Under the pieces are notes generated by a model that had not been told where the DNA came from, made no database searches, and worked only from the letters and a program-made list of their open reading frames with translations. DNA of 64,000 bases from Natronomonas halophila (GTDB lineage Archaea > Halobacteriota > Halobacteria > Halobacteriales > Haloarculaceae): assembly GCF_013391085.1 (NCBI RefSeq), contig NZ_CP058334.1, positions 62,001 through 126,000 of the forward strand. Direction: 5' to 3'. The position numbers and the translations under genes are program-made. This document shows positions 10,691 through 44,424 of the stretch, one piece after another. Each line of letters starts with the position of its first letter. Within the stretch, counting starts at the first letter, position 1.

Positions 10691-11509
10691 CTATTCGACG
10701 TCCTCGGAGACCGCTGGCGGGCCTTCGATAACCATCGTCTCGCCGGTGAGATAGCTCGATGCCTGTGTCGCGAGGAACACCACCGCATCGGCGATTTCGT
10801 CGGCGCCGCCGACCATCCGATTCACTGTCGAGCGGTCGTGAGCCGTATCCGAGCCGACGCCCATGACGCCCGCCGACCCGGGCGTCAAGACGAGTCCCGG
10901 TGCGATGCAGTTGACTCGGATATCGCGGTCGGCCCACTCGTTGGCGAGCGACCGCGTCAGGTTCTCGACGCCCGCTTTGGCGGCCCCGTAGTGGCTCATC
11001 GTGTTCGACCCGTACTGGCCGGCGATAGACGAGAAGTTCACGATACGGCCGCCGCCTTCGAGGTGGGGCAGGGCGGCCGTCGAACACAGATGCGTCCCCT
11101 TCAGGTTGATGTCCGCAACGGTATCCCAGCCGTTCGGCGAGATGTCTTCCGTCTCGCTGACGAACGAGGCGCCCGCGTTGTTGACGAGGATATCGAGCCC
11201 GCCGAGTTCCGAGACCGTCGTCTCGACCATCTCCTCGACGGCATCAGGGTCCGAGACGTCGGTCTCGATGGCGATGGCTTGGGCGTCGAAGGCCGCTTCG
11301 AGTTCGTCGACGACGGCTTCGAGGTCCTCCAGTGACCGACTGGCGACGGCGACGTCGGCGCCGACCGCTGCGAGTTCGAACGCGGTCACGCGGCCGATAC
11401 CGCGGCTCGCCCCCGTGACGAGTGCTACATCACCGTCCGCACGGAACCGGTCGGTGACGTTCGCTACATCTGTCGCTTCGAGCCAATCGTAGGCGCTGTC
11501 GGCGGCCAT
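10691..11509 (-). CDS. Short-chain dehydrogenase/reductase (LvaD-like candidate)
   Basis: 272 residues, a classical SDR: TGASRGIGR nucleotide-binding loop (about residues 31-39), NNAG, catalytic Ser in VNFSSIAG and YGAAK as the YxxxK pair, then a PG loop (IAPGLVLTPG). It should oxidise or reduce a hydroxyl/keto group with NAD(P)(H), probably on an acyl-CoA. It follows the acyl-CoA dehydrogenase and CoA ligase genes on the same strand, opposite an ACAD10/11-type phosphotransferase. That set matches levulinate catabolism, where LvaD reduces levulinyl-CoA to 4-hydroxyvaleryl-CoA; the assignment is inferred from context. TTATAT about 27 nt upstream suggests its own promoter. Confidence 0.85.
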   Translation of the reverse strand: MAADSAYDWLEATDVANVTDRFRADGDVALVTGASRGIGRVTAFELAAVGADVAVASRSLEDLEAVVDELEAAFDAQAIAIETDVSDPDAVEEMVETTVSELGGLDILVNNAGASFVSETEDISPNGWDTVADINLKGTHLCSTAALPHLEGGGRIVNFSSIAGQYGSNTMSHYGAAKAGVENLTRSLANEWADRDIRVNCIAPGLVLTPGSAGVMGVGSDTAHDRSTVNRMVGGADEIADAVVFLATQASSYLTGETMVIEGPPAVSEDVE

Positions 11510-12874: not shown

Positions 12875-14527
12875 TTACGACCCGTCGTCGCCCTCGCGGA
12901 GTTCGGTCCGGCGAATTTTGCCGGTGACTGTCTTCGGGAGTTCGTCGGTGAACTCGATTTCGCGTGGGTACTCGTGGGCCGCCAGTTGGTCGCGAACGAA
13001 CTGTTGGATCTCGCTTCGCGTCTCCTCGGTCGGTTCCGCGCCGTCGGCGAGGACGACGAACGCCTTGACCAGTTCGCCTCGCTTCTCGTCGGGTACGCCG
13101 ATGACGGCCGCTTCGGTGACGGCGTCGTGGTCGACCAGTTGCGATTCGATGTCGAACGGGCCGATGCGGTATCCCGACGAGATGATGACGTCGTCGGCGC
13201 GTCCCTCGAACCAGTAGTAGCCGTCCTCGTCTTCACGCGCCAGGTCGTCGGTGAGAACCCAGTCGTCTATCCATGCGTCCTCGGTCTTTTTCGGTCGGTT
13301 CCAGTATTCGAGGAACGTACTCGGGAACTTCCTGATGGCGATTTCGCCGGTTTCGCCCTGTTCGACCGGGTCGAGGGTCCCCGGTTCGACGATTTTCGTC
13401 TCGATACCGGGGTACGGTCGTCCCATGCTCCCGGGCTTGACCTCCCATGACTCGAAGGGGTAGTTCGCGACGACGGTGCCGTAGGTCTCGGAGGTGCCGT
13501 AGGTATCGAGAATCGGCGTGCCGAAGCGTTCCTCGGCCCACTCGACGATAGGGGCGTTCAGCGGTTCGCCGACCGACAGCAGGGTCCGGAGGTTCAGGTC
13601 GCGGCCGTCGAGCAGTTCCTCGTTGTTCCACAGCATCCGGTAGGCCGTCGGAACGCTGAACAGCACGGAAATCGGGTGTTCGTCGAGGATGTCGACCCAC
13701 GCGGCCGGGTCGAACTCGCCCTCGTAGACGACGATGGGGATTTCCCAGAACAGGGCGCCGAAGGGGTTGAGTCCGGTCAGCCATCCGGGGTCGGCGGTAC
13801 ACCAGTAGAGGTCGTCGGACTGCAACCCGGAGGGGAGTTTCGCGAAACTCGCGTTACCGACGGTAAAGCCGTGACCGTGGACGACGCCCTTCGCCGGCCC
13901 CGTCGTCCCGGAGGTGTAGTAGTGGAACGCGGGGTCGTTGGTTCCGGTTCGTACCGTCTCGAAGTCGGGAGAGGCATCGGAGACGCGGGCGTCGTAGTCG
14001 ACGTCCCCCTCGCGAATCTCGCCATCGCCGCGGTCGACGACGATGACGTTCTCCAGTGAATCGACTCCGTCGAGGGCCGCCTCGACCGTGTCACGGTTTT
14101 CGGCGGTCGTGACCACCGTCGAGGCGCCGCTGTCGCGCAGTCGGTGGGCGATACCGTCCGGCCCGTAGCGCTCGTTGACAGACCCGAAGACGGCGCCGGT
14201 CTTCAACGTGCCGAGGATAGTCACGTAGTGTTCCGGAATCCGCGGCAAGTACGTGAAGACCCGGTCACCGCGCTCGACGCCGAGGTCAGTCAGGACGTTC
14301 GCCACCCGGTTCGACTCCTCGGAGAGGTCGTCGAAGGTGTATCGTTCGTCCTCGCCGTCGGCGCTCACCCAGACGAGCGCGAGTTCGTCGTCGCCCGCGT
14401 GGCGGTCGACCGACTCGTGGGCGAAGTTGAGTTCGTTCCGACCGTTCCAGTCGCACTCGTCGCGTAACGACTCCCAGCTAAAGGACTCCCTGACCGATCC
14501 GTAATCGGCCGTCTCGCTTTCGAACAT
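12875..14527 (-). CDS. AMP-forming acyl-CoA ligase (ACSM/LvaE-like)
   Basis: 550 residues of the ANL superfamily. Motifs: phosphate loop YTSGTTGPAKG (Pro-Ala in place of the usual x-Pro), YGTSETYG, LTDDLAREDEDGYYWFEGR, SGYRIGPFDIES and the C-terminal KTVTGKIRRTEL with the adenylation Lys. It activates a carboxylic acid with ATP and CoA. The overall type is medium-chain/ACSM rather than acetate. It is divergent from the phosphotransferase gene, sharing a 128-bp promoter region; AATTATTG (14550-14557 on the plus strand as CAATAATT) is its likely TATA box. It is probably the substrate-activating step of the proposed 4-hydroxyacid pathway (LvaE role). Confidence 0.92.
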   Translation of the reverse strand: MFESETADYGSVRESFSWESLRDECDWNGRNELNFAHESVDRHAGDDELALVWVSADGEDERYTFDDLSEESNRVANVLTDLGVERGDRVFTYLPRIPEHYVTILGTLKTGAVFGSVNERYGPDGIAHRLRDSGASTVVTTAENRDTVEAALDGVDSLENVIVVDRGDGEIREGDVDYDARVSDASPDFETVRTGTNDPAFHYYTSGTTGPAKGVVHGHGFTVGNASFAKLPSGLQSDDLYWCTADPGWLTGLNPFGALFWEIPIVVYEGEFDPAAWVDILDEHPISVLFSVPTAYRMLWNNEELLDGRDLNLRTLLSVGEPLNAPIVEWAEERFGTPILDTYGTSETYGTVVANYPFESWEVKPGSMGRPYPGIETKIVEPGTLDPVEQGETGEIAIRKFPSTFLEYWNRPKKTEDAWIDDWVLTDDLAREDEDGYYWFEGRADDVIISSGYRIGPFDIESQLVDHDAVTEAAVIGVPDEKRGELVKAFVVLADGAEPTEETRSEIQQFVRDQLAAHEYPREIEFTDELPKTVTGKIRRTELREGDDGS

Positions 14528-14655: not shown

Positions 14656-15723
14656 ATGAGCGACCAGAACGACCACCTGCATCGATTAGTCGACGAGGGG
14701 GCGCTATCCGAGTTCCTCTCGGAACACCTCGGAAGCAAGGACGAACTCGATATCGAACATCACGACGAGGGCCACTCCAACGAGGTGCTGTTCTTCGACT
14801 GGGATGGGCAGGGCTATGCGCTCCGGCGACCGCCGGCCGGGGAGACGCCGGAGTCGGCCCACAACGTCCTCCGGGAACACGAGGTGATATCGTCGCTCGC
14901 CGAGACGTCGGTGCCGGTCCCCGAAACCGTCGTGGCCTGCGACGACCACTCGGTTATCGGCAGCGACTTCTTCGTCATGAAGCGACTCGACGGCACCGTC
15001 ATCCACAACGACACGGGCGAACCGGAGCGGTTCGGCACGCCCGCCCACCGCGAGCGTATCGGATCCGAGTTAGTGAGGACGCTGGCGACGATTCACGACG
15101 TGGACTACGAGCGGGTGGGCCTCGGCGAGTACGGCGACCCGGACGCCTATCTCTCGAAGCAGGTCGGTCTCTGGACACACCAGATGGAAGAGAGCTTCGA
15201 CCGCTCCGGACGGGAGGTCGACGCCCTCCGGGCGGCCGCGGAGTGGCTCGACGAGTCGATTCCCGAACCCGCCGATACGACGCTCGTTCACGGCGACTAC
15301 AAACTCGACAACGTCATGTTCGGTCCCGGAACACCGCCCGAAATCGTCGGCGTGTTCGACTGGGAGATGAGCACGCTCGGCGACCCCCTCGCCGACGTCG
15401 GCTATATGCTGTTCAACTGGACCCACGGCAGCGAGGAACTCTCGATTCCGGAACTGTTCCCGCCCTTTACCGAGAAGGAGGGGTATCCAAGCCAGCAGGA
15501 ACTCGTCCGGATGTACGAGGACGAAAGCGGACGGGCCTACCGTCACGACCGCTTCTATCGTGCACTGGCCGGGTTCAAACTCGCGACGGCGCTGGAGGCG
15601 TTCTACGCGCGGTACCTCGACGGGGAGACCACCGACCCGATGTTCCCCCTGCTGGAGGACGGCGTGCCCGAACTCGCCGCGCGCGTCCAGCGTATCATCG
15701 ACGGCGAGGAACCGCTCGAATGA
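14656..15723 (+). CDS. ACAD10/11-type phosphotransferase (LvaA-like candidate)
   Basis: 355 residues from the ATG at 14656; GATATAAG at 14624-14631 is 28 nt upstream, so upstream in-frame codons are not used. It is an aminoglycoside-phosphotransferase-fold kinase: RRPPAGETPESAHNVLREHEV is the hallmark of the kinase domain of ACAD10/ACAD11 (split here for length), followed by the Brenner motif LVHGDYKLDNVMF and the DFG-like VFDWEMSTLGDPLADVGY. These domains phosphorylate the 4-hydroxyl of 4-hydroxyacyl-CoA, and bacterial LvaA does so with LvaB. No LvaB-like small subunit is recognisable nearby. It lies opposite the ligase-ACAD-SDR set. Confidence 0.88.
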   Translation: MSDQNDHLHRLVDEGALSEFLSEHLGSKDELDIEHHDEGHSNEVLFFDWDGQGYALRRPPAGETPESAHNVLREHEVISSLAETSVPVPETVVACDDHSVIGSDFFVMKRLDGTVIHNDTGEPERFGTPAHRERIGSELVRTLATIHDVDYERVGLGEYGDPDAYLSKQVGLWTHQMEESFDRSGREVDALRAAAEWLDESIPEPADTTLVHGDYKLDNVMFGPGTPPEIVGVFDWEMSTLGDPLADVGYMLFNWTHGSEELSIPELFPPFTEKEGYPSQQELVRMYEDESGRAYRHDRFYRALAGFKLATALEAFYARYLDGETTDPMFPLLEDGVPELAARVQRIIDGEEPLE

Positions 15724-31475: not shown

Positions 31476-32488
31476 CGGTCGCCCCCCTCCTGTCCGTAGA
31501 GTGGCTCCTCGTAGATGTCATCGTATGCCACCTCGGAGTCCGGGAAATCGCTTTCCTGTGCGAACTCGACCGCCTCTCTCGCCTTAGCCTCGAACTCGGC
31601 GTATCTATCGTCGTATTCGGCGGCGGTGATGTGGCCGGCTTCTATCAGTCGGTCACGGAACGACGTTAGCGGGTCGGCCTCGCTGGCGTCGGCGTCCGTC
31701 TCGGTTCGGTACTGCTGTTTGTCCCCCTCGAAGTGGCCGCGCATCCGGGTCACGCGGCTCTCGATTACCGTCGGCCCGCCGCCGGAACGCGCCCGGTCGA
31801 CGGCCGCCGAAACCGCCTCGTGGACGGCGACCGGGTCCGACCCATCGACCGATTCCGTGGGCATATCGAGTGGCTCCCCGTAGTCAGATAGCTGCTCTAT
31901 CGGGAGGTTCTCGGCGTCGTAGGAGATGGCGAACTCGTTGTTCTCGATGACGTAGACGACAGGGAGGTCCCACGTGGCTGCGAACACGAGCGCCGTGTGG
32001 AACGAGCCCCGTGAGGTGCCACCGTCGCCAATCGTCGAGACGACGACGTTGCCCGTCTCCCGCATCTGCTGTGCGAGGGCGATGCCCGCCGCCGGGTTCT
32101 GTCCGGACCCGATGGTGGCAGCGTGACCGTAGAGGTGCCGGTCGTAATCGGCCAGATGCATCGACCCGCCTTTGCCCCGGTTCGGTCCGGTTTCCTTCCC
32201 GTATATCTCGGCCATCGCCTCCGGCATCGGGACGCCCTTGACGAGGTACTGGCCGTGGAGTCGTGACCCGCCGACGGCGAGCCAGTCGTCCGGTGCCATC
32301 GCGACGCCCATCCCGGCGTGGGACGCCTCGTGGCCGTGACAGAGATGGAGGAATCCCGGAACGTCGCCTTCCCTGAACTGTTCGAGCGCCGCGTCGTCGA
32401 AGGCGCGAATCCGCATCATCTCGTCGAGGAGCACGTCGGCCGTCTCTCTCGGCAGGTCGTCTACGTCTGGGTTCGACTCGCTAACCAT
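31472..32488 (-). CDS. 2-oxoacid dehydrogenase E1 alpha subunit (acetoin dehydrogenase candidate)
   Basis: 338 residues. TPP/Mg motif GDGGTSRGSFHTAL...ENNEFAIS, phosphorylation-loop-like GGSMHLAD, and HGHEASHAGMGVAMAPDDW at the N-terminal side. The short length and GKGGSMHLAD resemble AcoA and short E1alpha proteins. TTTATAAT (plus-strand ATTATAAA at 32515-32522) is about 30 nt from the ATG, and a perfect ACAGTACTGT palindrome lies between box and start codon. It is divergent from a 2,3-butanediol-dehydrogenase-like gene; that pairing is the main reason for preferring acetoin as substrate. Confidence 0.92.
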   Translation of the reverse strand: MVSESNPDVDDLPRETADVLLDEMMRIRAFDDAALEQFREGDVPGFLHLCHGHEASHAGMGVAMAPDDWLAVGGSRLHGQYLVKGVPMPEAMAEIYGKETGPNRGKGGSMHLADYDRHLYGHAATIGSGQNPAAGIALAQQMRETGNVVVSTIGDGGTSRGSFHTALVFAATWDLPVVYVIENNEFAISYDAENLPIEQLSDYGEPLDMPTESVDGSDPVAVHEAVSAAVDRARSGGGPTVIESRVTRMRGHFEGDKQQYRTETDADASEADPLTSFRDRLIEAGHITAAEYDDRYAEFEAKAREAVEFAQESDFPDSEVAYDDIYEEPLYGQEGGDR

Positions 32489-32490
32489 GA

Positions 32491-32500
32491 ACAGTACTGT
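32491..32500. promoter_or_regulatory. ACAGTACTGT palindrome at the E1alpha transcription start
   Basis: Perfect 10-bp palindrome two bases upstream of the E1alpha ATG and about 20 bp downstream of its TATA-like box. A protein bound here would block transcription or initiation of the E1 operon. One copy only was seen. Confidence 0.35.
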
Positions 32501-32645
32501 GTCCCCTTCGACCGATTATAAATGTGTGCCTCGGTGTCACCCAACACCTCCAGACTACCATCGCGACTGGCAACGACGGCCCCACCAGCCACGAGGTGTG
32601 TTCTCGGGGCGCACTTATTTGAGGTGGCACCCGAAACAGCCGTGT

Positions 32646-33713
32646 ATGCGTGCAGCAGTCTACCACGGCCAACGAGACGTGCGAGTCGAGGACGTCGACC
32701 CCCGACCGGTCGGCCCGGACGACGTGGAAATCGAAGTCGCCTACTGCGGTATCTGTGGGTCGGACGTCCACGAGTACGCCGCCGGCCCTATCGCCATCCC
32801 GGACGAAAATCCCCATCCGCTCACCGACGAGACGCTGCCGCTGACGCTGGGCCACGAGTTCAGCGGGACGGTCCGAGAGGTGGGTGAGGCCGTCGACGAC
32901 GTCGCGGTCGGTGACCGCGTCACCGTCAACCCGGCCATCTGGTGTGGCGACTGTCGGTTCTGTCAGGAGGGCGATTACCATCGCTGCGTTGCTGGCGGGA
33001 GTATCGGGCTCGCCGGATGGGGTGGTGGACTCGCCGAACGAGCCGTCGTCCCTGCCACACAGGTCGTCCCCGTTCCCGACGACGTCGGCCTCGATTACGC
33101 CGCGCTCGCCGAACCCTATGCCGTCGCGCTGCACGCCGTCCGTCGGTCGAGCCTCCAGTCCGGCGACGACTGTGTCGTCTTCGGTGCGGGGCCAATCGGA
33201 CTCGGTATCGCCCAGACCAGTCGGCTCGCAGGGGCGCGGCGTGTCTACGTGAGCGAACCGCAGGACGGACGCCGGGCCGTCGCTGACGAACTCGGGATGG
33301 AAGCGATAGACCCGACCGAAGACGACCCCGTGCGGCTGGTATCGAGCGAAACGGACGGCGGTGCCGACGTGGCCTACGAAGCGGCGGGCGTCGAACCCGC
33401 CCTCGAAGCCGCACTCCGGACCACCGTTCGCGGCGGCGAGGTACTGTTGGTCAGCGTCTTCGAGGAGGAAGCGACGATTCAGCCGAACTACCTGATGATG
33501 GCCGAACGGTCCATCGTCGGCTCTATCGCCTACCGGACCGGACCACGGGCCGCCGACTACGAGTTCGCGGCCGTCTTGGAGGCAATCGCCGACGGGCGAC
33601 TGGACCCCGAACCGCTCGTCACGAAACGCATCGGCCTCGACGACGTGGTTAAAGACGGTTTCGACGCGCTCACCGACCCCGACGAACAGGTGAAGATACT
33701 CGTTTCGCCCTGA
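32646..33713 (+). CDS. 2,3-butanediol dehydrogenase-like zinc alcohol dehydrogenase
   Basis: 355 residues from the ATG at 32646; CTTATTTG at 32614-32621 is 28 nt upstream. Medium-chain zinc dehydrogenase: CGICGSDVHEY (catalytic Zn Cys), GHEFSG, structural-Zn Cys cluster in CGDCRFCQEGDYHRC, and Rossmann loop GAGPIGLG. The opening and the segment following CGICGSD (EYAAGPIAIPDENPHPLT) closely resemble Bacillus-type BdhA. It should interconvert 2,3-butanediol and acetoin with NAD(H). It lies divergent from E1alpha/E1beta, consistent with butanediol to acetoin to acetyl-CoA plus acetaldehyde. Other secondary alcohols remain possible. Confidence 0.87.
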   Translation: MRAAVYHGQRDVRVEDVDPRPVGPDDVEIEVAYCGICGSDVHEYAAGPIAIPDENPHPLTDETLPLTLGHEFSGTVREVGEAVDDVAVGDRVTVNPAIWCGDCRFCQEGDYHRCVAGGSIGLAGWGGGLAERAVVPATQVVPVPDDVGLDYAALAEPYAVALHAVRRSSLQSGDDCVVFGAGPIGLGIAQTSRLAGARRVYVSEPQDGRRAVADELGMEAIDPTEDDPVRLVSSETDGGADVAYEAAGVEPALEAALRTTVRGGEVLLVSVFEEEATIQPNYLMMAERSIVGSIAYRTGPRAADYEFAAVLEAIADGRLDPEPLVTKRIGLDDVVKDGFDALTDPDEQVKILVSP

Positions 33714-33830: not shown

Positions 33831-35054
33831 ATGCACCTAGTCGACTATCCCGAGTCCGACCGGGCGAACGAACTCGCTCGGAAGACACGGGACCTGATGG
33901 ATGAGGTAATCCTGCCGTTCGAGCGAGACCTCGGCCCCGGTGAGGCGATATCGGATTCCGAACTGGAATCGCTCCGTGAGGCCGCCAAGGACTACGGCGT
34001 CTACTGCCCCCAGATGCCGGAGGAGTACGGTGGGATGGGCGAATCGTTCCGGGATTCGCTGGCCGTCTTCGAGGAGGCCGGCCAGTCGCTGTTGGGGCCG
34101 CCGGCCCTTCGGGTCGATGCGCCCGACGAGGGCAACATGCACACCATCGAACTCGCGGGGACGGAGGCCCAGAAGGAGCGGTGGTTACCGCCACTAATCG
34201 AAGGCGAGGCGAAGTCCGCCTTCTCGATGACCGAACCGGCACCCGGCGGCGGGTCGGACCCGAAGATGATCAAGACGACCGCCGAGAAGGACGGCGACGA
34301 GTGGGTCATCGACGGCCACAAGTGGTGGACATCGAACGGCTACGAGGCCGACGTGTTCCTCGTGATGGCCCGCACCGATCAGGATGCTCACCCCTACGAG
34401 GGCTGTTCGATATTCCTCGTCCCCGCCGAGGCAGACGGGCTCGAACTCGTCCGCGACGTGCCCTCGATGGACAGTTCGATGCTGGAGGTAAGCCACGCGG
34501 AGGTGCGATACGACGGCGTTCGCGTCCCCGAGGAGAACATCCTCGGCGCGGAAAACGAAGGGTTCCAGATTGCTCAGCGCCGACTCGGGCCGGCGCGGCT
34601 GACTCACTGTATGCGCTTCTGTGGGATGGCCGACCGCGCGCTCGCCATCGCTCGGGCGTATATGCAGCATCGGGACGCCTTCGGGTCTTCGCTGGCCGAC
34701 AAGCAGTCCCTTCGGCACAAAATCGCCGAGCAGGAACTCGCGTTGCATACCACTCGGACGACAACCCGTGATGCCGCACGGCGCATAAGCGAGGGCCATC
34801 AGGCCCGCATCCCCGTTGCGATGTGTAAGGTCAAAGCCGCACGGATGGTCCAGGAGGCCGTCGACCTCGCCATCCAGTGTTGTGGCGGCGCCGGCCTCTC
34901 CCGGGACCTCCCGCTCGTCGATTTCTACGAGGGACTTCGCTTCTTCCGCATCGGCGACGGCGCCGACGAGGTCCACCTCCGGTCGATTGCCCGCGAGGCC
35001 TTCGAGGACGAACACGTCGCCGACGCCGACCTCGCGAACCTACCGGAGTTCTGA
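33831..35054 (+). CDS. ACAD10/11-like acyl-CoA dehydrogenase-fold protein
   Basis: 407 residues from the ATG at 33831; TTATTTAA at 33795-33802 supports it. The ACAD fold is complete (SMTEPAPGGGSDPKM, GHKWWTSNG), but the C-terminal domain carries RRLGPARLTHCMRFCG and RIGDGADEVHLRSIA. These are hallmarks of the ACAD10/ACAD11 dehydrogenase domain. The loop reads GDGADEV, so the normal EGT glutamate is absent, and no Glu is present at the isovaleryl-CoA-type position (LGPAR). In ACAD11 and LvaC this fold converts 4-phosphoacyl-CoA to 3-hydroxyacyl-CoA. It is a close paralogue of the gene at 43210, not adjacent to the kinase at 14.7 kb. Confidence 0.88.
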   Translation: MHLVDYPESDRANELARKTRDLMDEVILPFERDLGPGEAISDSELESLREAAKDYGVYCPQMPEEYGGMGESFRDSLAVFEEAGQSLLGPPALRVDAPDEGNMHTIELAGTEAQKERWLPPLIEGEAKSAFSMTEPAPGGGSDPKMIKTTAEKDGDEWVIDGHKWWTSNGYEADVFLVMARTDQDAHPYEGCSIFLVPAEADGLELVRDVPSMDSSMLEVSHAEVRYDGVRVPEENILGAENEGFQIAQRRLGPARLTHCMRFCGMADRALAIARAYMQHRDAFGSSLADKQSLRHKIAEQELALHTTRTTTRDAARRISEGHQARIPVAMCKVKAARMVQEAVDLAIQCCGGAGLSRDLPLVDFYEGLRFFRIGDGADEVHLRSIAREAFEDEHVADADLANLPEF

Positions 35055-35085
35055 CCGGGCCGCACCGTCGTTCTCGTTTTCGTTC

Positions 35086-37098
35086 CTACCGCGGGTCTTC
35101 GAGCGCCGCGAGCGCCTCGGGGTTCTCGATGCTGCTCATATCGCCCAGTTCCTCGCCGGTGTAGATTGCCTCGACCGCACGGCGGATGATTTTGCCCGAC
35201 TGCGTTTTTGGGAACTCGTCGACGAAGAGCACCTCGCGAGGCCGGAACGGTTTGCCGAGTTCCTCGCCGACCATCTCGCGGACCTCCTCGCGGAACGCGG
35301 TCGTCTCCTCGATACCTTCCTCGACGATGACGTACAACACCACTGCGGTCCCGGTCGTGTCGTCGGGCGCCCCCACTGCGGCGGCCTGATTGACGCCGTC
35401 GTGTTCCATCGCCGCGCCCTCGACTTCCGCGGGGCCGACCTTCCGGCCGGCGACGTTCAGGGCGTCGTCCGCACGGCCGTGCAGGAACCAGAAACCGTCC
35501 TCGTCCTTCTGGGCCCAGTCGCCGTGGTCCCACATCGGCGGGTCCTCGAACCGCGCCCAGTATTCGTCGAGATAGCGCTCGTCACCGCTCCACAGCGATT
35601 TGGTCATCGACGGACAGGAGTCGCGGGCGACCAGATAGCCACGCTCGTTGTCCTCCTTGATGGATGCGCCGGTCGCATCGACGATGTCGATGTCCATCCC
35701 GAGGCCGGGGCCGCCGAGCGTACACGGCTTCAGCGACTGGATGGGCATCGGCATCAGGAAACAGCCCATGATTTCGGTGCCGCCGGAGATGTTGATAATA
35801 GGCGTGTCGCCCCCGCCGACGTTTTCGTAGAACCACATCCAGGATTCGGGGTCCCACGGTTCGCCCGTCGACCCGAGCAGTCGAAGCGACGAGAGGTCGT
35901 GGCCCTCGACCCACTCGTCGCCCTGCTTGCGGAGCGCCCGGATGGCGGTCGGCGAGATACCGAACTGCGTGACGTCGTGGCGGTCGATCATCTCCCAAAA
36001 CCGGTCCGGTTGCGGGTAGTCGGGTGCCCCCTCGTACATGACGATAGTGCCGCCAAAGGCGTGATTGCCGATGAGCGTCCACGGCCCCATCATCCAGCCG
36101 ATGTCCGACACCCAAAAGAAACGGTCCGACGGCTTGAGGTCGAAGCCGAAATACACCTCCTTGGCCGCCTGCATGAGCGCGCCAGCGTGGGTGTGGACGA
36201 TACCCTTCGGCTTCCCCGTCGTTCCCGACGAGTAGAGGAGCATCGACTCCTGGTCGCTCGGGAGGGACTTGGTCTCGTAGTCGTCGTCGGCCTCGGCGAC
36301 GGTATCGGCCCACCACTCGTCGCGGCCGTCGGTCATGGGCACCGAGAGGTCGGAGTCGGCAGCGCTGGCGCCGAGCCGGTCGAAGACGATCACCGATTCA
36401 ACGTCCGTGTCGGCTTGTGCGATGGCCTCGTCTGCGGACGATTTGAGCGTCACGGGGTCGCCCCGACGAAGGAAGCCGTCGCCGGTAAAGAGGACGTCCA
36501 CCGCGGGGTCCTCGATGCGAGTAGCAGTCGCGTCGACCCCGAACCCGGAGAAGATCGGCACGGCGATAGCGCCGACCTTGAAACACCCATAGAGGATGGC
36601 CGTAACTTCCGGCACCATCGGCATGTAGAGGCCGACGGTATCGCCGGTCCCTACGCCGCGGGCTTCGAGGGCGTTGGCGACCTGATTGGCCTGTCGGTGT
36701 AACTCGTGGTAGGTGACTTCCCGAACCTCGCCGTCCTCGCCCTCCCAGATGCAGGCGACCTTGTTGCGGGTCTCCGAGTCCCGGGCGGCGTGACGGTCGA
36801 GGACGTTGTGAGCGGCGTTGAGTTTGCCACCCGGATACCAGTCGGAAAACTGGGGGCCGTCGGTGTCGTCCCTGACCCGGTCGTAGTCCTCGTAGAACTC
36901 GATGTCGAGGTAGTCGACGAGGTCGTCCCAGAACCAGTCGACGCCGGAGGCCTCGACGCCATCGACGTCGGTCGTCGTCCGCTCGATTAACTCCTCGTAG
37001 TCGTCGATGTCGTAGGCCTGCATGAACTCCCAGACGTTCGTCGACTCGACGAACTCACGGCTCGGCTCGTGGACTATCTCCGTGACGCTGTCTGACAT
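35086..37098 (-). CDS. Acetyl-CoA synthetase-like AMP-forming ligase
   Basis: 670 residues from the ATG at 37098 (MSDSVTEIVHEP); longer in-frame starts are not supported. It has the acetyl-CoA-synthetase architecture, with a long N-terminal domain before the adenylation core, YSSGTTGKPKG, DIGWMMGPW, GGTEIMG, HGDWAQKDEDGFWFLHGRADDALNVAGRKV and KTQSGKIIRR with the adenylation Lys. Classic AcsA has similar length but a different loop around the propionate pocket, so acetate, propionate or another short acid could be used. It converges with the ACAD10/11-like gene and lies downstream of an SDR and BKACE on the same strand. Confidence 0.92.
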   Translation of the reverse strand: MSDSVTEIVHEPSREFVESTNVWEFMQAYDIDDYEELIERTTTDVDGVEASGVDWFWDDLVDYLDIEFYEDYDRVRDDTDGPQFSDWYPGGKLNAAHNVLDRHAARDSETRNKVACIWEGEDGEVREVTYHELHRQANQVANALEARGVGTGDTVGLYMPMVPEVTAILYGCFKVGAIAVPIFSGFGVDATATRIEDPAVDVLFTGDGFLRRGDPVTLKSSADEAIAQADTDVESVIVFDRLGASAADSDLSVPMTDGRDEWWADTVAEADDDYETKSLPSDQESMLLYSSGTTGKPKGIVHTHAGALMQAAKEVYFGFDLKPSDRFFWVSDIGWMMGPWTLIGNHAFGGTIVMYEGAPDYPQPDRFWEMIDRHDVTQFGISPTAIRALRKQGDEWVEGHDLSSLRLLGSTGEPWDPESWMWFYENVGGGDTPIINISGGTEIMGCFLMPMPIQSLKPCTLGGPGLGMDIDIVDATGASIKEDNERGYLVARDSCPSMTKSLWSGDERYLDEYWARFEDPPMWDHGDWAQKDEDGFWFLHGRADDALNVAGRKVGPAEVEGAAMEHDGVNQAAAVGAPDDTTGTAVVLYVIVEEGIEETTAFREEVREMVGEELGKPFRPREVLFVDEFPKTQSGKIIRRAVEAIYTGEELGDMSSIENPEALAALEDPR

Positions 37099-37318
37099 AG
37101 TGTCCCACTTCGATGAAAATGGGTTCAGGTGATAATCTTTACTGTCACCGAACTCCCTCCGGATTGAGGCCATCCGGATATTCCTTGACACGCGTCGTCA
37201 GTAGCTGCTGAGCGGTCCGCTCGAATACTGCTGGCGGCGTAGGTCGGCATACCGTATAAAAGACATAATGGTTTCGGTGGTTCGACCCAACGTCGAGGCC
37301 ACCGAATCGGGCGAGCGG

Positions 37319-38131
37319 TTAGAAATCGAACGGGAGCGGTGCGGTCAACTGGCCGCCGTCGACGGTGAAGTAGCCGCCGGTGACGTAGGCCGCGGCGGGA
37401 CTCGCGAGGAACACCACGGTCGGAACGCAGTCCGCTGCCGTCCCGAAGCGCCCGGAGGGGATATCTTCGAGGAGTTCGTCGGGCAGGGACCCGCCGGTCG
37501 CGCCCTTGATTCCCTCCGTCTCGATGACGCCGGGCGCGACAGTGTTGGCTCGGATACCGTCCTCGGCCCATTCGGCGGCAATCGTCTGCATGAGGTTGTG
37601 GATACCGGCCTTACCCGCCCCGGAGTGGGCGTGGAACGGCGCGCCGCGCTCGGAGTTGGTCGCGCCCATCGCCAGGATGACGCCGCCGCCCTGCTCGCGC
37701 ATGTGTTCGGCGGCCGCGAACGTACAGTAGGCGGTGCCGTCGAGAATCGTCCCGACGACCGCGCGCCACCCATTGGGAGTGAGTTCCTCGGTGGGCGTCA
37801 CGAAGTTCGCACCCGCGTTGTTGACGAGGATGTCGATGCTCCCGAGTTCGTCGACGGTCGTCTCGACCATCCGTTCGACTGATTCGTACTCGCGGACGTC
37901 AACGGTCGTCGCACAGGCGTTCTGGCCTTTCTCCTCGATTTTCTCGGCGACCGGTTCGAGGTGGTCCATGTCACGACTGGCGATGGCGACGTCGGCGCCG
38001 TGGTCGGCGAACGCGAGCGCGATTTGCTCGCCGATGCCGGTGCCGCCACCGGTGATGAGCGCGACTTCCCCCCCCAGAAGGTCGTCGGTAAATATCTCGG
38101 TACTCGCCGGCGTGTCTCCAAGCCCCGCCAT
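37319..38131 (-). CDS. SDR resembling 2,4-dienoyl-CoA reductase
   Basis: 270 residues. TGGGTGIGE loop, NNAGANFVTPTEELTPNGW, VASPAAAYVTGG near the C-terminus. The classical YxxxK Tyr is missing: the position four before the Lys in AHSGAGKAG is Ser. NNAGANF, the missing Tyr and the GxAK-like region are shared with peroxisomal 2,4-dienoyl-CoA reductase (DECR2). It would reduce dienoyl-CoA intermediates from unsaturated acids using NADPH. Its ATG overlaps the stop of the BKACE gene by one base, so the two are translationally linked. Confidence 0.84.
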   Translation of the reverse strand: MAGLGDTPASTEIFTDDLLGGEVALITGGGTGIGEQIALAFADHGADVAIASRDMDHLEPVAEKIEEKGQNACATTVDVREYESVERMVETTVDELGSIDILVNNAGANFVTPTEELTPNGWRAVVGTILDGTAYCTFAAAEHMREQGGGVILAMGATNSERGAPFHAHSGAGKAGIHNLMQTIAAEWAEDGIRANTVAPGVIETEGIKGATGGSLPDELLEDIPSGRFGTAADCVPTVVFLASPAAAYVTGGYFTVDGGQLTAPLPFDF

Positions 38132-39012
38132 TATACCATCCCCAGAATTTCGCGGGCCTCGTCAGGCGTCGCGGGTTCGCGGCCGACGTTGCGCGTCATC
38201 TCGGCGGCCTTGCCGACGAGTTCGGGGTTGGTCGACATTTCGCCGTTCGGCAGGTAGAAGTTGTCTTCGAGGCCGACGCGGACGTTGCCACCCATCGAGA
38301 GGGCGGCCGACGCCAGCGGCCATTGGTCCTCGGAGATGCCGATGACCTGCCAGTTGGCGTTCTCCGGGAGTTCCCGGACCTGATTGGCGAGGTTATCGAT
38401 GGTGGCCGGAATCCCGCCGAGGACGCCCATGATGAGGCTGAACTGAAGCGGGTGGTCGAGGTCGCCCGATTTCAAGAGCGGGCGCGTGTTCCCGATATGC
38501 CCCGTGTCGAAACACTCCAACTCAGGCTTGATGCCGGCCTCGTTCATCGTCTGTACGAACGTCTGAATGTCGTCGAAGGAGTTCTCGAAGACCATGTTGA
38601 ACACGAAATCCTCGCGGGATTCGCTGTATTTCGCGTAGTTCATCGACCCCATGTTGAGGGCCGCGATGTCCGGCTGGACCTCCCGCAGGTACTCCAGCCG
38701 TTCCTCGACGGTCGCGTCCATCGCGCCGGTCGAGAAGTTGATCAGGATGTCCGTTCGGTCGCGGACCTCGTCGTAGATTTCCTGATAGGTGTCGGTGTCG
38801 AAGGTCTGCTCGCCGTCGTCGGTCCGTGCGTGGATGTGGGCGATTGCGGCGCCGTTCTCGCGGGCGGCAGCGGCGTCCTCGGCGATCTCCTCGGGCGTAT
38901 ACGGAATCGCTTCACACTGGTCCCGCGTCGTCAGCGCACCGGTTAGCGCGGCCGAGATAATCGCCTTATCCGGGTCGTTTCCTTTCGTGGATGCTTGGTT
39001 TTCGATTGTCAT
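38131..39012 (-). CDS. BKACE family enzyme (beta-keto acid cleavage)
   Basis: 293 residues, DUF849/BKACE family. The zinc-site HIHAR motif (about residues 57-61) and the later ECFDTGHI are visible. BKACE enzymes cleave a beta-keto acid with acetyl-CoA into acetoacetate and a shorter CoA ester; the prototype acts on 3-keto-5-aminohexanoate and others on dehydrocarnitine. Lysine-fermentation neighbours (kamA, kdd, kal) are absent, so that route is unlikely. It is upstream of, and overlapping, the dienoyl-CoA-reductase-like SDR, with an acetyl-CoA-synthetase-like gene beyond. Confidence 0.9.
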   Translation of the reverse strand: MTIENQASTKGNDPDKAIISAALTGALTTRDQCEAIPYTPEEIAEDAAAARENGAAIAHIHARTDDGEQTFDTDTYQEIYDEVRDRTDILINFSTGAMDATVEERLEYLREVQPDIAALNMGSMNYAKYSESREDFVFNMVFENSFDDIQTFVQTMNEAGIKPELECFDTGHIGNTRPLLKSGDLDHPLQFSLIMGVLGGIPATIDNLANQVRELPENANWQVIGISEDQWPLASAALSMGGNVRVGLEDNFYLPNGEMSTNPELVGKAAEMTRNVGREPATPDEAREILGMV

Positions 39013-39303
39013 GGTTGGGTGGATTCATCACATCACGAGTCGGGACCACCCTCTCGGCGGAAGGGAGGGTGGACGCTCCTGATGCTTGATCTCACACGTC
39101 ATGCTACGATTATGGCCGGACTACTTATGTGCTTCGTCGGTCCCACCGACGGTACACGGTGAGGGTGGACGAACCTGTTCTCACCACGATGCCCGGTGGA
39201 TAATCCCCCTGACCAGTACAATTATTACCATCCGGAGAATCTGAAGTACCAGACGAAATCGGCGGGAATCATCGGCCGGTTTAGCGACCAATCAGTCAAA
39301 ACA
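39013..39303. other. Divergent intergenic region with two inverted repeats
   Basis: 291 bp between the BKACE start and the carboxyltransferase start. It holds CCACCCTC (39046-39053) paired with GAGGGTGG (39065-39072), 11-bp loop, and CGTCGGT (39135-39141) paired with ACCGACG (39145-39151), 3-bp loop. Both are candidates for regulatory sites or transcript structures. No small gene is supported. Confidence 0.5.
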
Positions 39304-40983
39304 ATGAAAATAGATATTGACGGCGATTTCGACGAGCGGACTGCGCGAGCGATAGTCACGGCCATCTCCCAACATTTCGGGGAGCCGATAGAATTGAAAG
39401 GCGACGAATCGTCGCCGACCGAGTCCTTCGACGAGGCGGTCATCACCGAACGGGAGGAGGCGATTCGCGATGAAATCGAGGAAATCATGTCCGGCGGTCC
39501 CGAGCGGGGCCACGAGAAAATCGAAGAGTTGGGCAAACTCTTCGTTCGGGAACGGATGGACCTCGTCTTCGACGACGTGACCTTCGAGAACGGTACGTTC
39601 GCGGGCCTCGATAACGACGACTGGACGCCGGCCGACGGCCTGATAACCGGCGTCGCCGAAATCGATGGCCGGGACGTCTACTTCTCGGCGAACGACTATA
39701 CCGTAAAGGCAGGCTCAATCGGGAATCAGGGCATCGAAAAGCAGGTTCGGCTGAGCGAGCGCGCCGTCGACGCGCGTTCGCCCATCATCCGGCTCATCGA
39801 CTCGACGGGCGCCCGACTCACGCCGGGCGAACGCGACGAAACCGAGTCCCACGCCGACCGCTACACCGGCGGGAAGTCCTTCTTCAATCAGTGTATCCAC
39901 TCGGGACAGGTCCCACAAATCGGCATTCTCTATGGGCCGAACATCGCCGGGTCGGCGTACACGCCCGTCTTCTGTGATTTCCTGATCATGGTCGAGGGGA
40001 CCTCCGGGATGGCTATCGCGTCGCCCCGAATCGTCGAGGAGATGACTGGCGAGCAGACCGACATGCAGGCACTCGGCGGCCCGGAGGTCCACGCGAAACA
40101 CTCCGGGAGCGCCGACCTCGTGGTTCCCGACGAGGAGACCGCCGCCGAGAAGGCGCGACAACTCCTGAGTTATCTCCCCGACGACCACAGCGACTCGCTG
40201 CCGACGAGGCCGTCGAAACCGCCGTCGCTCAACCCCAAGAGCCTCGATAGCGTCATCCCCGACCAGCCGAACGAGGCCTACGACGTCAATCAGGTCATCA
40301 ACCGGGTCGTCGACGACGGGTCGTGGCTCGAACTGAAGCCCGATTTCGCGCCGGAAATCGTCACCGGATTCGGGCGAATCGACGGCAGCCCCGTCGGTGT
40401 CGTTGCGAACCAACCGGACCACGTCTCCGGAGCTATCTTCCCGGATTCGGCCAACAAGGCCGCCGGATTCATCTGGAAGTGCGACGCCTTCGGCATCCCG
40501 CTGGTCTACCTCTGTGACACGCCGGGCTTTATGATCGGTTCACAGGTCGAAAAGGACGGCGTCCTCCAGAAAGGCCGGAAGTTCATCTACGCCACCTCGA
40601 ACGCGCAGGTGCCGAAGTTCTGTGTCATCACTCGCAAGGCCTACGGCGCCGGCATCTACGCGATGGCCGGCCCCGCCTTCGAACCGGACGCCACCCTCGC
40701 ACTCCCCTCCGCCGAACTCGCGGTCATGGGCCCCGACGCCGCCGTTCGTGCCGTATTCGCCAGACAGATCGATGAAATCGACGACCCCGCCGAACGGGAG
40801 GCGTTCATCGAGGAGAAAAAACAGCAATACCGCAAGGACATCCGCAAGCAGGCCTCGAACATGCAGGTCGACGAACTCGTTCCCGCCGGCGACCTCCGGG
40901 AGCAACTCGTCGGCCGACTGAACGCGCTGGATAACAAGCAGCGCACGGAGTACGACCGTAAACACGGGACGGTCCTCTTCTGA
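39304..40983 (+). CDS. Acyl-CoA carboxylase carboxyltransferase subunit
   Basis: 559 residues from the ATG at 39304. Residues 1-45 (MKIDIDGDFDERTARAIV...) form a small extension predicted as beta-alpha-beta; the carboxyltransferase core follows. N-terminal half: IDSTGARLTPGERDE and GPNIAGSAYTPVFCDFLIMV. C-terminal half: CDTPGFMIGSQVEKDG, KAYGAGIYAMAG, and GPDAAVRAVFARQ. It transfers carboxyl from biotin to an acyl-CoA, most often propionyl- or methylcrotonyl-CoA. The alpha subunit lies 13 kb away at 24625-26463. It heads a plus-strand run with an ACAD, an enoyl-CoA hydratase and an ACAD10/11-like gene. Confidence 0.93.
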   Translation: MKIDIDGDFDERTARAIVTAISQHFGEPIELKGDESSPTESFDEAVITEREEAIRDEIEEIMSGGPERGHEKIEELGKLFVRERMDLVFDDVTFENGTFAGLDNDDWTPADGLITGVAEIDGRDVYFSANDYTVKAGSIGNQGIEKQVRLSERAVDARSPIIRLIDSTGARLTPGERDETESHADRYTGGKSFFNQCIHSGQVPQIGILYGPNIAGSAYTPVFCDFLIMVEGTSGMAIASPRIVEEMTGEQTDMQALGGPEVHAKHSGSADLVVPDEETAAEKARQLLSYLPDDHSDSLPTRPSKPPSLNPKSLDSVIPDQPNEAYDVNQVINRVVDDGSWLELKPDFAPEIVTGFGRIDGSPVGVVANQPDHVSGAIFPDSANKAAGFIWKCDAFGIPLVYLCDTPGFMIGSQVEKDGVLQKGRKFIYATSNAQVPKFCVITRKAYGAGIYAMAGPAFEPDATLALPSAELAVMGPDAAVRAVFARQIDEIDDPAEREAFIEEKKQQYRKDIRKQASNMQVDELVPAGDLREQLVGRLNALDNKQRTEYDRKHGTVLF

Positions 40984-41061
40984 ACGACACGGCGGCTTTC
41001 CTCGTGAGGTATCGGCGACGGTGGGCGAAGCGTATATGGTTCTGGCGGGGTGGCATTCGGT

Positions 41062-42201
41062 ATGGCCTTCACAGTGTCAGCCGAACACGAAGCGGTTCGG
41101 CAAGCGATTCGCGAGTTCGGCGAAAACGAGATTCGGCCGGTGGCGAAGGAATACAACGAGACAAAGCGCTATCCTGCGGAGTTGCTCGCGGAGGCGGGGA
41201 GCTATGACTTCGTCGCCCCCAAAGTTCCCGAAGAGTACGGGGGAGCGGGCATGGACACGCTTGCGGAGTTGCTGATTACCGAGGAGCTCTGGCGGGCGGA
41301 CCCCGGCGTCGGCGGCTCCATCGCCGCGGCCCGGTTCGGCACCGAGATGCTGTTGAAGTACGGCGACGAGTGGATGAAAGAAGAGTGGCTCCCGAAGATA
41401 ACCGCCGGGGAGACCCCAATCGCGACGGCCATCAGCGAACCCGCACACGGTTCGAACGTCGCCGGGATGGAGACCCGCGCGGAGAAGGATGGTGACGAAT
41501 ACGTCATCAACGGCAGCAAGATGTGGATCACGAACGGAACCGTCGCCGACGTCTGTATCGTGATGGCCAAGACCTCCCCCGAGGACGGCAACCAAGGCAT
41601 TACGGCGTTTCTGACGCCGACCGACGTCGGCGGCTACAATGCCGAGCGCATCACGAACAAACTCGGCATCGCGGCCCAGGACACCGCCGAAATCGTCCTC
41701 GATGACCTCCGAGTCCCTGCCGAGAACGTCATCGGGGACCTCGACGAGGGCTTCTACCAACTCATGGAGTTTTTCGCCCCCGCGCGGGCCGACGTCGCGG
41801 CCCAGGCGACCGGCGTCGCACAGGCCGCCCTCGATGCGGCGCTGGATTACGCGGGCGAACGCGAGCAGTTCGGCCAGCAAATCGGGGAGTTTCAGGCGAT
41901 TCGACACAAACTCGCCGAGATGGCGACGGATATCGAGGCCGCCCGCTCGTTGACTTACCGGGCGGCCGGGGCACTCGAAGACGGCGAGGACCCGCTGGCC
42001 ACCCGAATGGCCAGCATGGCGAAACTCTTCGCCAGCGAACACGCCGTCGACGTGACCGACGAGGCGATTCAGGTCCACGGCGGGGCCGGCTACGTCTCCG
42101 ACCACCCGGTCGAACGCTACTACCGGGACGCGAGGGTCACGAAGATCTACGACGGAACCAGCGAAATCCAGAAGAACATCATCGCCGACCACCTCCTGTA
42201 G
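41062..42201 (+). CDS. Acyl-CoA dehydrogenase family protein (Asp at base position)
   Basis: 379 residues from the ATG at 41062; TATATG at 41033-41038 supports it over a GTG four codons earlier. Complete ACAD fold: ISEPAHGSNVAGM, ITNGTVADV, KLGIAAQDTAEIVLDDLRVP, QVHGGAGYVSDHPVER. The catalytic loop reads IYDGTSEIQKN, with Asp (about residue 364) where the general-base Glu is normal. No alternative Glu is present (FAPARADVAAQ). It should oxidise a short or branched acyl-CoA, perhaps slowly or with a different substrate geometry. It lies between the carboxyltransferase and enoyl-CoA hydratase genes. Confidence 0.92.
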   Translation: MAFTVSAEHEAVRQAIREFGENEIRPVAKEYNETKRYPAELLAEAGSYDFVAPKVPEEYGGAGMDTLAELLITEELWRADPGVGGSIAAARFGTEMLLKYGDEWMKEEWLPKITAGETPIATAISEPAHGSNVAGMETRAEKDGDEYVINGSKMWITNGTVADVCIVMAKTSPEDGNQGITAFLTPTDVGGYNAERITNKLGIAAQDTAEIVLDDLRVPAENVIGDLDEGFYQLMEFFAPARADVAAQATGVAQAALDAALDYAGEREQFGQQIGEFQAIRHKLAEMATDIEAARSLTYRAAGALEDGEDPLATRMASMAKLFASEHAVDVTDEAIQVHGGAGYVSDHPVERYYRDARVTKIYDGTSEIQKNIIADHLL

Positions 42202-42297
42202 GCGCCCACACCGCGGCCGCCGACGGGTGATTCCGAGGAAAAGCTTTTGTCGGTTTCGGGGGTCCTGTCGGATGGGTCGATTTCGACCTGCGACACC

Positions 42298-43104
42298 ATG
42301 ACACTCGATACGACAGCACTCTCCAACGACGACCTCTCCGTCACCAAAAGCGACGACGAGGTGGTCGTCCGAGCGACGATAGACCGCCCCGACAAGCACA
42401 ACGCGCTGAACGACCGCGTCCTGAACGGCCTGATGGACGTGATGGACGCCGCGGACGAAAGCCCCGCCCGCGTCGTCGTCATCCGTGGGGCCGGAGGGAC
42501 CTTCTGTTCCGGCGGCGACCTCGAGGGGATGGACGAAACCGAGGATCCGCCGATGGAGGAGCGTCGCCGAAACTCCTCGAAGCTCAGCGATCTCTTCGAG
42601 CACATGGTCGACACGTCCGCCCTCACGGTCGCGGCGGTCGAAGGCTACTGTCTCGCCGGCGGGTGTGGGCTGGCCGCGGCCTGCGAGTTCGTCGTCGCGG
42701 CCGACGACGCCGAGTTCGGTACCCCGGAAGTCAACGTCGGGATGTTCCCGATGCAGGCGATGGCCTCGATTCTGCCGGCCGTCCTCGAAAAGCAAGGCCT
42801 GAAGATGCTGTTTACGGGCGACCACGTCTCGGCGACCGAGGGCCGAGAAATCGGCCTCGTCACGGACGTCCTCGACGCCGACGAATTCGAGGGACGCCTC
42901 GACGCCTACGTCGACAAACTCGCCGCGAACAGCCCGGTGATGATATCGATGGGGAAAGAGGCCTACCACACTCAGCGGGACATGCCGTTCGACCGGTCGC
43001 ACAACTACCTCAAGGAGATGCTTACGCTCCTCATGGAAAGCGAGGACCACGAGGAGGGCGTCGCCGCGTTCGTCGAGGACCGCGAGCCCGATTGGAAACG
43101 ATAG
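42298..43104 (+). CDS. Enoyl-CoA hydratase/isomerase family protein
   Basis: 268 residues from the ATG at 42298. Crotonase fold: first oxyanion-hole loop GTFCSGGDL, second oxyanion loop AGGCGLAAACEF, then GTPEVNVGMFPM. Of the two hydratase glutamates, the first (E144 in rat enoyl-CoA hydratase) is Gly here (GGCGLA) while the second (E164, in TPEV) is kept. A single Glu is seen in isomerases and some hydrolases, so hydration should not be assumed. It lies between two ACAD genes on the plus strand (105 bp to the next start). Confidence 0.9.
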   Translation: MTLDTTALSNDDLSVTKSDDEVVVRATIDRPDKHNALNDRVLNGLMDVMDAADESPARVVVIRGAGGTFCSGGDLEGMDETEDPPMEERRRNSSKLSDLFEHMVDTSALTVAAVEGYCLAGGCGLAAACEFVVAADDAEFGTPEVNVGMFPMQAMASILPAVLEKQGLKMLFTGDHVSATEGREIGLVTDVLDADEFEGRLDAYVDKLAANSPVMISMGKEAYHTQRDMPFDRSHNYLKEMLTLLMESEDHEEGVAAFVEDREPDWKR

Positions 43105-43209
43105 GACCGTAGCCACCGGACCGTCATTGAGGATTTTTCATCGGCCACACGCCCATCCCCGCAACGCTGGCGTCACAAGTTATTTCATTGCTCCTCGTGA
43201 CCAACGCAC

Positions 43210-44424
43210 ATGGAGTTCGAGTACGACGACTCGGAGACGGCCACGGAGCTAGTCGAACGGACGAAGGCGTTCATGGACGAGGTGGTCATCCCACGGGAGC
43301 GCGAGGATTTCCTCGGCGGCGGCGAGATGACCGACGAACTGATTGCGGAGTTGCGGGCCGAAGCGAAGGAACGCGACCTGTACGCCCCACAGATTCCCGA
43401 AGAGTACGGCGGACTCGGCCTAGATTTCCGAGACGTACTGCCGATGTTCGAGCAGGCCGGGCGGTCGCTGCTGGGGCCGCCCGCGCTCCGCGTCGATGCG
43501 CCCGACGAGGGGAACATCCACACCATCGAGATGGTGGGAACGGACGAGCAGAAGGAAGAATGGCTGGTCCCGCTGGTCGACGGCGAGTACACCTCGGCCT
43601 TTTCGATGACCGAACCGATGCAGGGCGGTGGGTCGGACCCGAAGATGATCAAGACGACCGCCGAGAAGGACGACGACGAGTGGGTCATTAACGGCCACAA
43701 GTGGTGGACGAGTCAGGGCGACGAAGCCGACATCCTGCTCGTGATGGCACGGACGAACCAGGACGCCCACCCCTACGAGGGCTGTTCGTTCTTCCTCGTG
43801 CCGCCGGAGACCGACGGCGTCGAGTTCCCGCGTGATGTGCCGTATCTCGGCGACTCGTGGGGGATTAGCCATCCCGAAGTCATCTACGACGACGTGCGCG
43901 TGCCCGAAGAGAACCTGCTCGGACCGAAAGACGAAGGGTTCGGTATCGCCCAGCGGCGACTTGGACCCGCACGGCTGACCCACTGTATGCGCTTCTGCGG
44001 GATGGCAAAGCGGTCGATTAACGTCGCGAAGTCCTACGTGAGCGAGCGGGAAGCGTTCGGCAGCGACCTCTCGGAGAAACAGTCGTTGCGGTTCACGGTC
44101 GCACGTGCGGAGACGCGCCTGCACGCCGTCCGGACGCAGGTCCGGCACGCGGCCAGACAAATCGCCGCGGGCAAGGAAGCCCGCATCGAGGTCGCGATGT
44201 GTAAGGTGTTCGCGGCCAACGTCGTCAACGAAATCATCGACGACATGCTTCAGTTGTGCGGCGGCAACGGGATGGCCCGTGACCTGCCCCTCTCCTACTT
44301 CTACGAGGACGTCCGCGGGTTCCGCATCTTCGATGGGGCCGACGAGGTCCACCTCCGGTCGATTGCCCGTGAAGCCTTCGAGGACGTCGACGATGAGGAG
44401 ATGCAGACCGTTACGCGGTTCTGA
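43210..44424 (+). CDS. ACAD10/11-like acyl-CoA dehydrogenase-fold protein
   Basis: 404 residues; TTATTT (43180-43185) is 28 nt upstream. It is a close paralogue of the protein at 33831-35054: both contain LLGPPALRVDAPDEGN, MIKTTAEKD, GHKWWTS, RRLGPARLTHCMRFCGMA and GADEVHLRSIAREAFED. The ACAD10/11-type loop is FDGADEVH, without the usual catalytic Glu. A dehydrogenase role is therefore doubtful, and conversion of a phosphorylated or hydroxylated acyl-CoA is an alternative. It ends the plus-strand run that starts with the carboxyltransferase. Confidence 0.88.
   Translation: MEFEYDDSETATELVERTKAFMDEVVIPREREDFLGGGEMTDELIAELRAEAKERDLYAPQIPEEYGGLGLDFRDVLPMFEQAGRSLLGPPALRVDAPDEGNIHTIEMVGTDEQKEEWLVPLVDGEYTSAFSMTEPMQGGGSDPKMIKTTAEKDDDEWVINGHKWWTSQGDEADILLVMARTNQDAHPYEGCSFFLVPPETDGVEFPRDVPYLGDSWGISHPEVIYDDVRVPEENLLGPKDEGFGIAQRRLGPARLTHCMRFCGMAKRSINVAKSYVSEREAFGSDLSEKQSLRFTVARAETRLHAVRTQVRHAARQIAAGKEARIEVAMCKVFAANVVNEIIDDMLQLCGGNGMARDLPLSYFYEDVRGFRIFDGADEVHLRSIAREAFEDVDDEEMQTVTRF

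Follow-up and report, generated by a model that had tools for sequence, protein, structure and literature searches.

In mammals, ACAD10 and ACAD11, a rare enzyme type through which 4-hydroxy acids gain access to beta-oxidation, carry a kinase fused to an acyl-CoA dehydrogenase (ACAD) domain, and their reaction was worked out in 2024-2025, with the flavin mechanism still called unclear in the reports concerned (PMC12440821, PMC11342911). According to the proposal in PMC11342911, an Asp takes the C2 proton, FAD accepts the C3 hydride, phosphate leaves and FADH2 returns the hydride. D753 of ACAD11 is called catalytic in PMC12440821, and mutation of D1040 in ACAD10 is reported to abolish the activity of the ACAD domain (PMC11342911). 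The account in PMC12440821 further describes R626, H634 and R637 as forming salt bridges with the 4-phosphate in modelling, as not found in conventional ACADs, and as the residues at which Ala or Leu substitutions caused the greatest disruption; R631 is given there as conserved throughout the ACAD family, and the residue set as common to LvaC and ACAD10/11. In the lva operon of Pseudomonas putida, known to us through PMC12440821 and PMC11342911, the kinase and ACAD genes (LvaA/LvaC) are separate and run in one direction. The word “archaea” is absent from the main text of these two papers, and a full-text literature search returned no archaeal ACAD10/11-type counterpart, a weak negative, as subscription literature lies mostly outside the scope of such a search.

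The DNA analyzed here (the window, 64,000 bp) covers bases 62001-126000 of contig C1 in a haloarchaeal genome of 3.21 Mb, whose proteins have haloarchaea as their closest named relatives. Two of the five ACADs that it encodes, a count given correctly in the original prediction, are with a probability of roughly 0.8 archaeal ACAD10/11-type flavoenzymes acting in a split ACAD10/11 or LvaA/LvaC pathway. They resemble mammalian ACAD11/ACAD10 (8v3u, 8v3v, 2wbi) in the catalytic Asp, the HCMR motif, R626, the nearest structures by sequence and by fold and the presence of a homologous kinase; unlike them, they show 36% identity, form a separate clade, have kinase and ACAD genes apart (as in LvaA/LvaC), and come as several ACADs per kinase. 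Most likely, this is the same enzyme type and pathway logic as in mammals, but in a second domain of life, with the genes split and the ACAD present in several copies.

Active-site residues of the two window proteins

Paralogue A (33831-35054, + strand, 407 aa) and paralogue B (43210-44424, + strand, 404 aa) are open reading frames with an ATG start and a TGA stop, located as originally proposed. Both have Pfam ACAD N, M and C domains and are single-domain proteins, the kinase genes being separate; neither was matched above cut-off in NCBIfam. They are 64% identical and share RRLGPARLTHCMRFCG and DGADEVHLRSIA, motifs that had been quoted exactly, with G in paralogue A and F in paralogue B ahead of the latter (loop GDGADEV or FDGADEV). 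The best PDB sequence matches of paralogue A were ACAD11 (8v3u, 8v3v, 2wbi) and 4hr3, an ACAD of M. abscessus, at 227-231 bits (next chain 176), and those of paralogue B were 4hr3 and the ACAD11 chains, at 211-214 bits (next chain 170).

The position of E376 in MCAD is occupied by Asp in both proteins, D376 in paralogue A (GAC codon, 34956-34958, + strand) and D375 in paralogue B (GAT codon, 44332-44334, + strand), aligned with D753 of mouse ACAD11. This Asp of (G/F)DGADEVH also aligns with D1040 of ACAD10, and the mouse ACAD11 chains 8v3u and 8v3v have D and N, respectively, exactly there. In IVD and LCAD the base is a Glu at another site, on helix G in LCAD, as described in PMC11153573; in both window proteins the residue preceding R631, before the helix G Arg, is Ala (GPAR), confirming that the isovaleryl-CoA dehydrogenase-type Glu is absent. 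The original prediction, which held that the two proteins lack a recognizable catalytic base, was right in that no Glu stands at the MCAD or the IVD place and wrong in that the base is not missing. Judged from the alignment, the base is present and is the Asp proper to the subfamily, whose counterparts are described as needed for ACAD10 activity (PMC11342911) and as catalytic in ACAD11 (PMC12440821), which is why we reject the missing-base reading.

The predicted phosphate binders were also found. In paralogue A, R251, R256, H259 and R262 of RLGPARLTHCMR (34581-34616, + strand) align with mouse ACAD11 R626, R631, H634 and R637, whose roles are as described in PMC12440821; the corresponding residues of RLGPARLTHCMR in paralogue B are R250, R255, H258 and R261 (43957-43992, + strand). 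These four, together with D375, were invariant in all rows of a 28-row alignment (28 of the 35 rows initially chosen). H597 in mouse ACAD11 numbering is likewise kept in both window proteins, and 4hr3 has HAMR where they have HCMR. A genome-wide search with paralogue B as the query (E ≤ 1e-20) gave 22 ACADs, of which only four had the full set R626/R631/H634/R637/D753 plus H597: the two window proteins, C1:57064-58302 and C1:1461370-1462569. The other 18 of 18 were without it. Among 85 relatives from public records, 83 had all six residues and two had all except H597; 80 of the 85 had been retrieved from genomes by patterns elsewhere in the protein, so the residue set was not the search key. 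The Pro of the E helix, associated in PMC11153573 with the wide pocket of ACAD11, is present in three of the four copies of this genome (LGP), the kinase-paired copy C1:57064-58302 having LGA.

Phylogeny and predicted fold

A tree of 57 proteins was built with 33 of the 85 relatives (11 haloarchaeal and 22 bacterial) and the 18 other ACADs of the same genome as an outgroup. The four own copies, the 11 haloarchaeal and 22 bacterial relatives, mouse ACAD11 and 4hr3 formed a 39-row clade against these 18 ACADs, with support of 100/100. Within it, the 15 haloarchaeal rows made a group of their own (100/100), apart from the mouse ACAD11 branch (36% identity to mouse ACAD11), with the bacterial and mouse rows on the opposite side (84/92). 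Thus, in the phylogeny that had been suggested as a check, here with ACAD11 included and LvaC outside the tree, both window proteins fell in the ACAD10/11-type clade; the closest PDB chains, the residue set and this placement agree with the type originally assigned to them.

The AlphaFold model of paralogue B (pLDDT 91.5) places R250, R255, H258 and R261 on a single long helix (residues 243-279) and D375 right after the helix 361-374, the same arrangement of helices as described for ACAD11 in PMC12440821. VIA-align ranked 4hr3, 2wbi and 8v3u first (Z 49.3, 48.2 and 46.6; next 44.3), at an rmsd of 1.9 to 2.2 over 382 to 388 residues, and the first four Foldseek rows were from the same three structures. 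For paralogue B, a structural comparison at the level of the fold and from a predicted model therefore puts ACAD11-type structures closest.

Kinase genes and their co-occurrence with ACAD11-type genes

The kinase to which the window proteins had been linked (14656-15723, + strand) proved to be of the ACAD11 type. It is an APH-type kinase (Pfam APH, 8e-46) homologous to the ACAD11 kinase domain (8v3v, 1.9e-42), with an HGDYKLDN motif and with D214 and N219 at the catalytic D220 and N225. The equivalent of R176 is Lys168 here and Arg in a second kinase of the genome, and at the mapped position of the published kinase residue R86 there is no Arg in the numbering used here. Among solved kinases, 3dxp (presumably of Ralstonia origin) and 9o56 are close and, like 4hr3, have no function assigned in their records. 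The second kinase (C1:58416-59498), 49% identical to the first, lies head to head with the ACAD11-type gene C1:57064-58302, 113 bp apart. This pair (C1:57064-59498) ends 2.5 kb upstream of the window start and is the sole physically paired set in a genome with two ACAD11-type kinases and four ACAD11-type ACADs; neither window ACAD adjoins a kinase gene.

Other genes surround these kinases. An AMP-forming acyl-CoA ligase (12875-14527, - strand, Pfam AMP-binding), head to head with the window kinase, is a candidate for CoA activation, and a nearby SDR oxidoreductase (10691-11509, - strand, Pfam adh_short), with relatives at 52 to 53% located next to ACAD11-type/kinase pairs in two further genomes, may act as a 4-oxo/4-hydroxy reductase. 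A zinc-type MDR dehydrogenase gene (C1:59545-60762) lies 46 bp beyond the second kinase, MDR-like genes likewise come after the kinase at two other loci (L032 and L042), and another (32487-33713) stands just ahead of paralogue A.

To count both partners, 292 Halobacteria genomes were searched with the window kinase (E ≤ 1e-50) and with the kinase-paired ACAD copy of this genome (E ≤ 1e-90). The kinase was found in 145 and the ACAD11-type protein in 144, both in 144 and neither in 147; no genome had the ACAD only, so that the kinase was present in 144/144 genomes bearing an ACAD11-type gene. The single kinase-only genome (G175) had a weak kinase match (1.9e-52). To control for fatty-acid oxidation merely being present, the ordinary ACAD at 41050 was used as a query (E ≤ 1e-90) and was found in 253/292. 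Presence of the ACAD11-type gene varied within 15 genera, and the kinase pattern was identical in 14 of them, which makes shared descent alone a poor explanation of the co-occurrence. The DNA pattern RLGP(A/G)RxxHCxR by itself detected 126 genomes versus 144 by protein search, the 18 missed having RLGGGR, RLVPAR or RLSPAR variants with HCMR and DG(A/P)DEVH kept. A search of 246 genomes of the phylum gave 19 genomes with a match at E ≤ 1e-60, all within the own order, the share of the 246 lying outside the order not being given.

A kinase was located within 6 kb of at least 79 of 139 DNA-signature sites, at least 65 head to head and at least 14 convergent, these being lower bounds from the kinase matches listed. 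The haloarchaeal pair is thus often head to head, unlike the lva operon, and also unlike it has no DUF6285 protein (which we take to be LvaB). The DUF6285 protein, considered as a missing partner of the kinase, was found in 0/292 Halobacteria genomes and in 2 of 14 control genomes. In many haloarchaea a single kinase match accompanied two ACAD11-type matches (e.g., genomes G004, G005, G025 and G034), and for this reason the phospho-intermediate is probably passed between free proteins. Such loose pairing fits the finding, reported in PMC11342911, that either part of ACAD10, kinase or ACAD, can be replaced by its bacterial counterpart. In genome G199, of the same family, there were six kinase matches (E ≤ 1e-50), the highest count among the rows listed, and four ACAD11-type matches.

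Around the kinase in nine annotated haloarchaeal plasmid regions, an ACAD11-type gene was present in five (Haladaptatus salinisoli, Haloferax mediterranei, DL31, Natrinema caseinilyticum and Halocatena salina), an AMP-forming ligase in five, an SDR-type gene (by name or length) in five and a 3-hydroxyacyl-CoA dehydrogenase gene in three. The H. mediterranei plasmid pHME132 (L164:3897-7056) has in addition a HAD hydrolase gene beside the pair, i.e., the parts of mammalian ACAD10 (HAD, kinase and ACAD) as separate genes. On plasmids of Thermus, Sphingobium, Pseudosulfitobacter and Rhodococcus, the ACAD11-type gene is directly followed by the kinase. Over all 85 relatives, a kinase ORF was found in the fetched flank of 44; the 41 without one were mostly bacterial, with several contigs short. 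In the annotated records consulted, the names given to these genes go no further than acyl-CoA dehydrogenase, phosphotransferase family protein or the like. The archaeal branch offers simple proteins for testing, small, single-domain and encoded by split genes, with no DUF6285 partner and with near-perfect kinase co-occurrence.

Proposed pathway and neighboring catabolic genes

For the split-pathway reading, our analysis provides homology, conserved residues, clade, fold and kinase co-occurrence; the reaction chemistry is taken from the mammalian work as presented in PMC12440821 and PMC11342911, and we infer that the same chemistry, and the substrates, apply to the archaeal proteins. An APH-type kinase (14656-15723 or the upstream copy) would transfer phosphate from ATP to the 4-hydroxyl group of a 4-hydroxyacyl-CoA. 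Asp375/376 would then remove the C2 proton while FAD accepts the C3 hydride, and Arg250/251, His258/259 and Arg261/262 would hold the departing 4-phosphate, leaving probably a 2,4-dienoyl-CoA. Return of the hydride from FADH2 would give a 2-enoyl-CoA in a step that is redox-neutral overall and independent of ETF, and a hydratase and a 3-hydroxyacyl-CoA dehydrogenase would complete beta-oxidation. Given the ACAD10/11 type, isomerization-type turnover of 4-phosphoacyl-CoA, as had been supposed from the start, is probable over plain dehydrogenation. The distribution points to a possible catabolic route for 4-hydroxy acids in roughly half (144/292) of the haloarchaeal species searched.

Several points speak against this reading: the separate clade, the 36% identity, Lys at R176, no kinase beside the window ACADs, DUF6285 in 0/292 genomes and the 41/85 relatives with no kinase ORF in the flank. 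A tentative version, doubtful in its full extent, is that haloarchaea have a deep-branching form of kinase-primed phosphate elimination that brings 4-hydroxy acids of non-lipid-peroxidation origin into beta-oxidation, one or two kinases feeding up to four flavoenzymes and the unpaired window paralogues being specialized for branched or isoprenoid-derived 4-hydroxyacyl-CoA. Lipid-peroxidation products are unlikely substrates, given that the membrane lipids of archaea are isoprenoid ethers.

The deep separate branch, the several paralogues in the genome and the position of the window copies near branched-chain-type catabolic genes could also mean that the substrate is another phosphorylated acyl-CoA (e.g., 3- or 5-phospho, branched or isoprenoid-derived), supplied by a kinase of matching specificity; we consider this unlikely, since the reported 4-phosphate-binding residues are unchanged. 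Less likely again is ordinary acyl-CoA dehydrogenase activity of the two proteins on a branched substrate or on acyl chains of a certain length, with Asp as the base and electrons going to ETF. Both paralogues do lie amid ordinary catabolic genes, with paralogue B preceded, at spacings of at most 105 bp, by genes for a carboxyltransferase, another ACAD and an enoyl-CoA hydratase; the ordinary-scaffold ACAD at 41050 in that run also has Asp at the base position, and oxidation of bulky chains had been proposed for ACAD11 (PMC11153573). Ordinary dehydrogenation, however, leaves unexplained R626, H634 and R637, absent from 18/18 other ACADs of the genome, and the kinase co-occurrence in 144/144 genomes, and ACAD10/11 are described in PMC12440821 as without plain dehydrogenase activity in a head-to-head comparison. 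That the base was lost and the proteins are non-catalytic or use another route, as the lack of an MCAD-type or IVD-type Glu had suggested, is highly improbable with an Asp at the MCAD Glu position that is invariant in 28/28 alignment rows and corresponds to the residue reported as required in ACAD10 and catalytic in ACAD11.

Apart from the split ACAD10/11-type pathway that we favor, the remaining window ACADs have features of their own. The run 39196-44424 (+ strand) consists of a carboxyltransferase, an ACAD, an enoyl-CoA hydratase and the ACAD11-type gene, with gaps of 66, 45 and 105 bp; it is operon-like, and its content resembles branched-chain acyl-CoA catabolism. Conservation of this arrangement was not seen: no other gene of the run (E ≤ 1e-30) was found within ca. 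7 kb on each side of nine of nine relatives of the ACAD at 41050. This ACAD (41050-42201, + strand) has an ordinary scaffold, no phosphate set and Asp at the Glu376 position (IYDGTSEIQ). Its nine closest fetched relatives (76 to 81% identity) have Asp and the next seven (70 to 74%) have Glu, so a haloarchaeal subfamily has exchanged Glu for Asp. The ACAD nearest the window kinase (11627-12811, - strand) was rejected as its ACAD11-type partner, since it has no phosphate set, carries Pro where the base usually stands and has a Glu of the IVD type (NPERLVG); the latter two features are common to two other ACADs of the genome, at C1:344 kb and C1:1525 kb.
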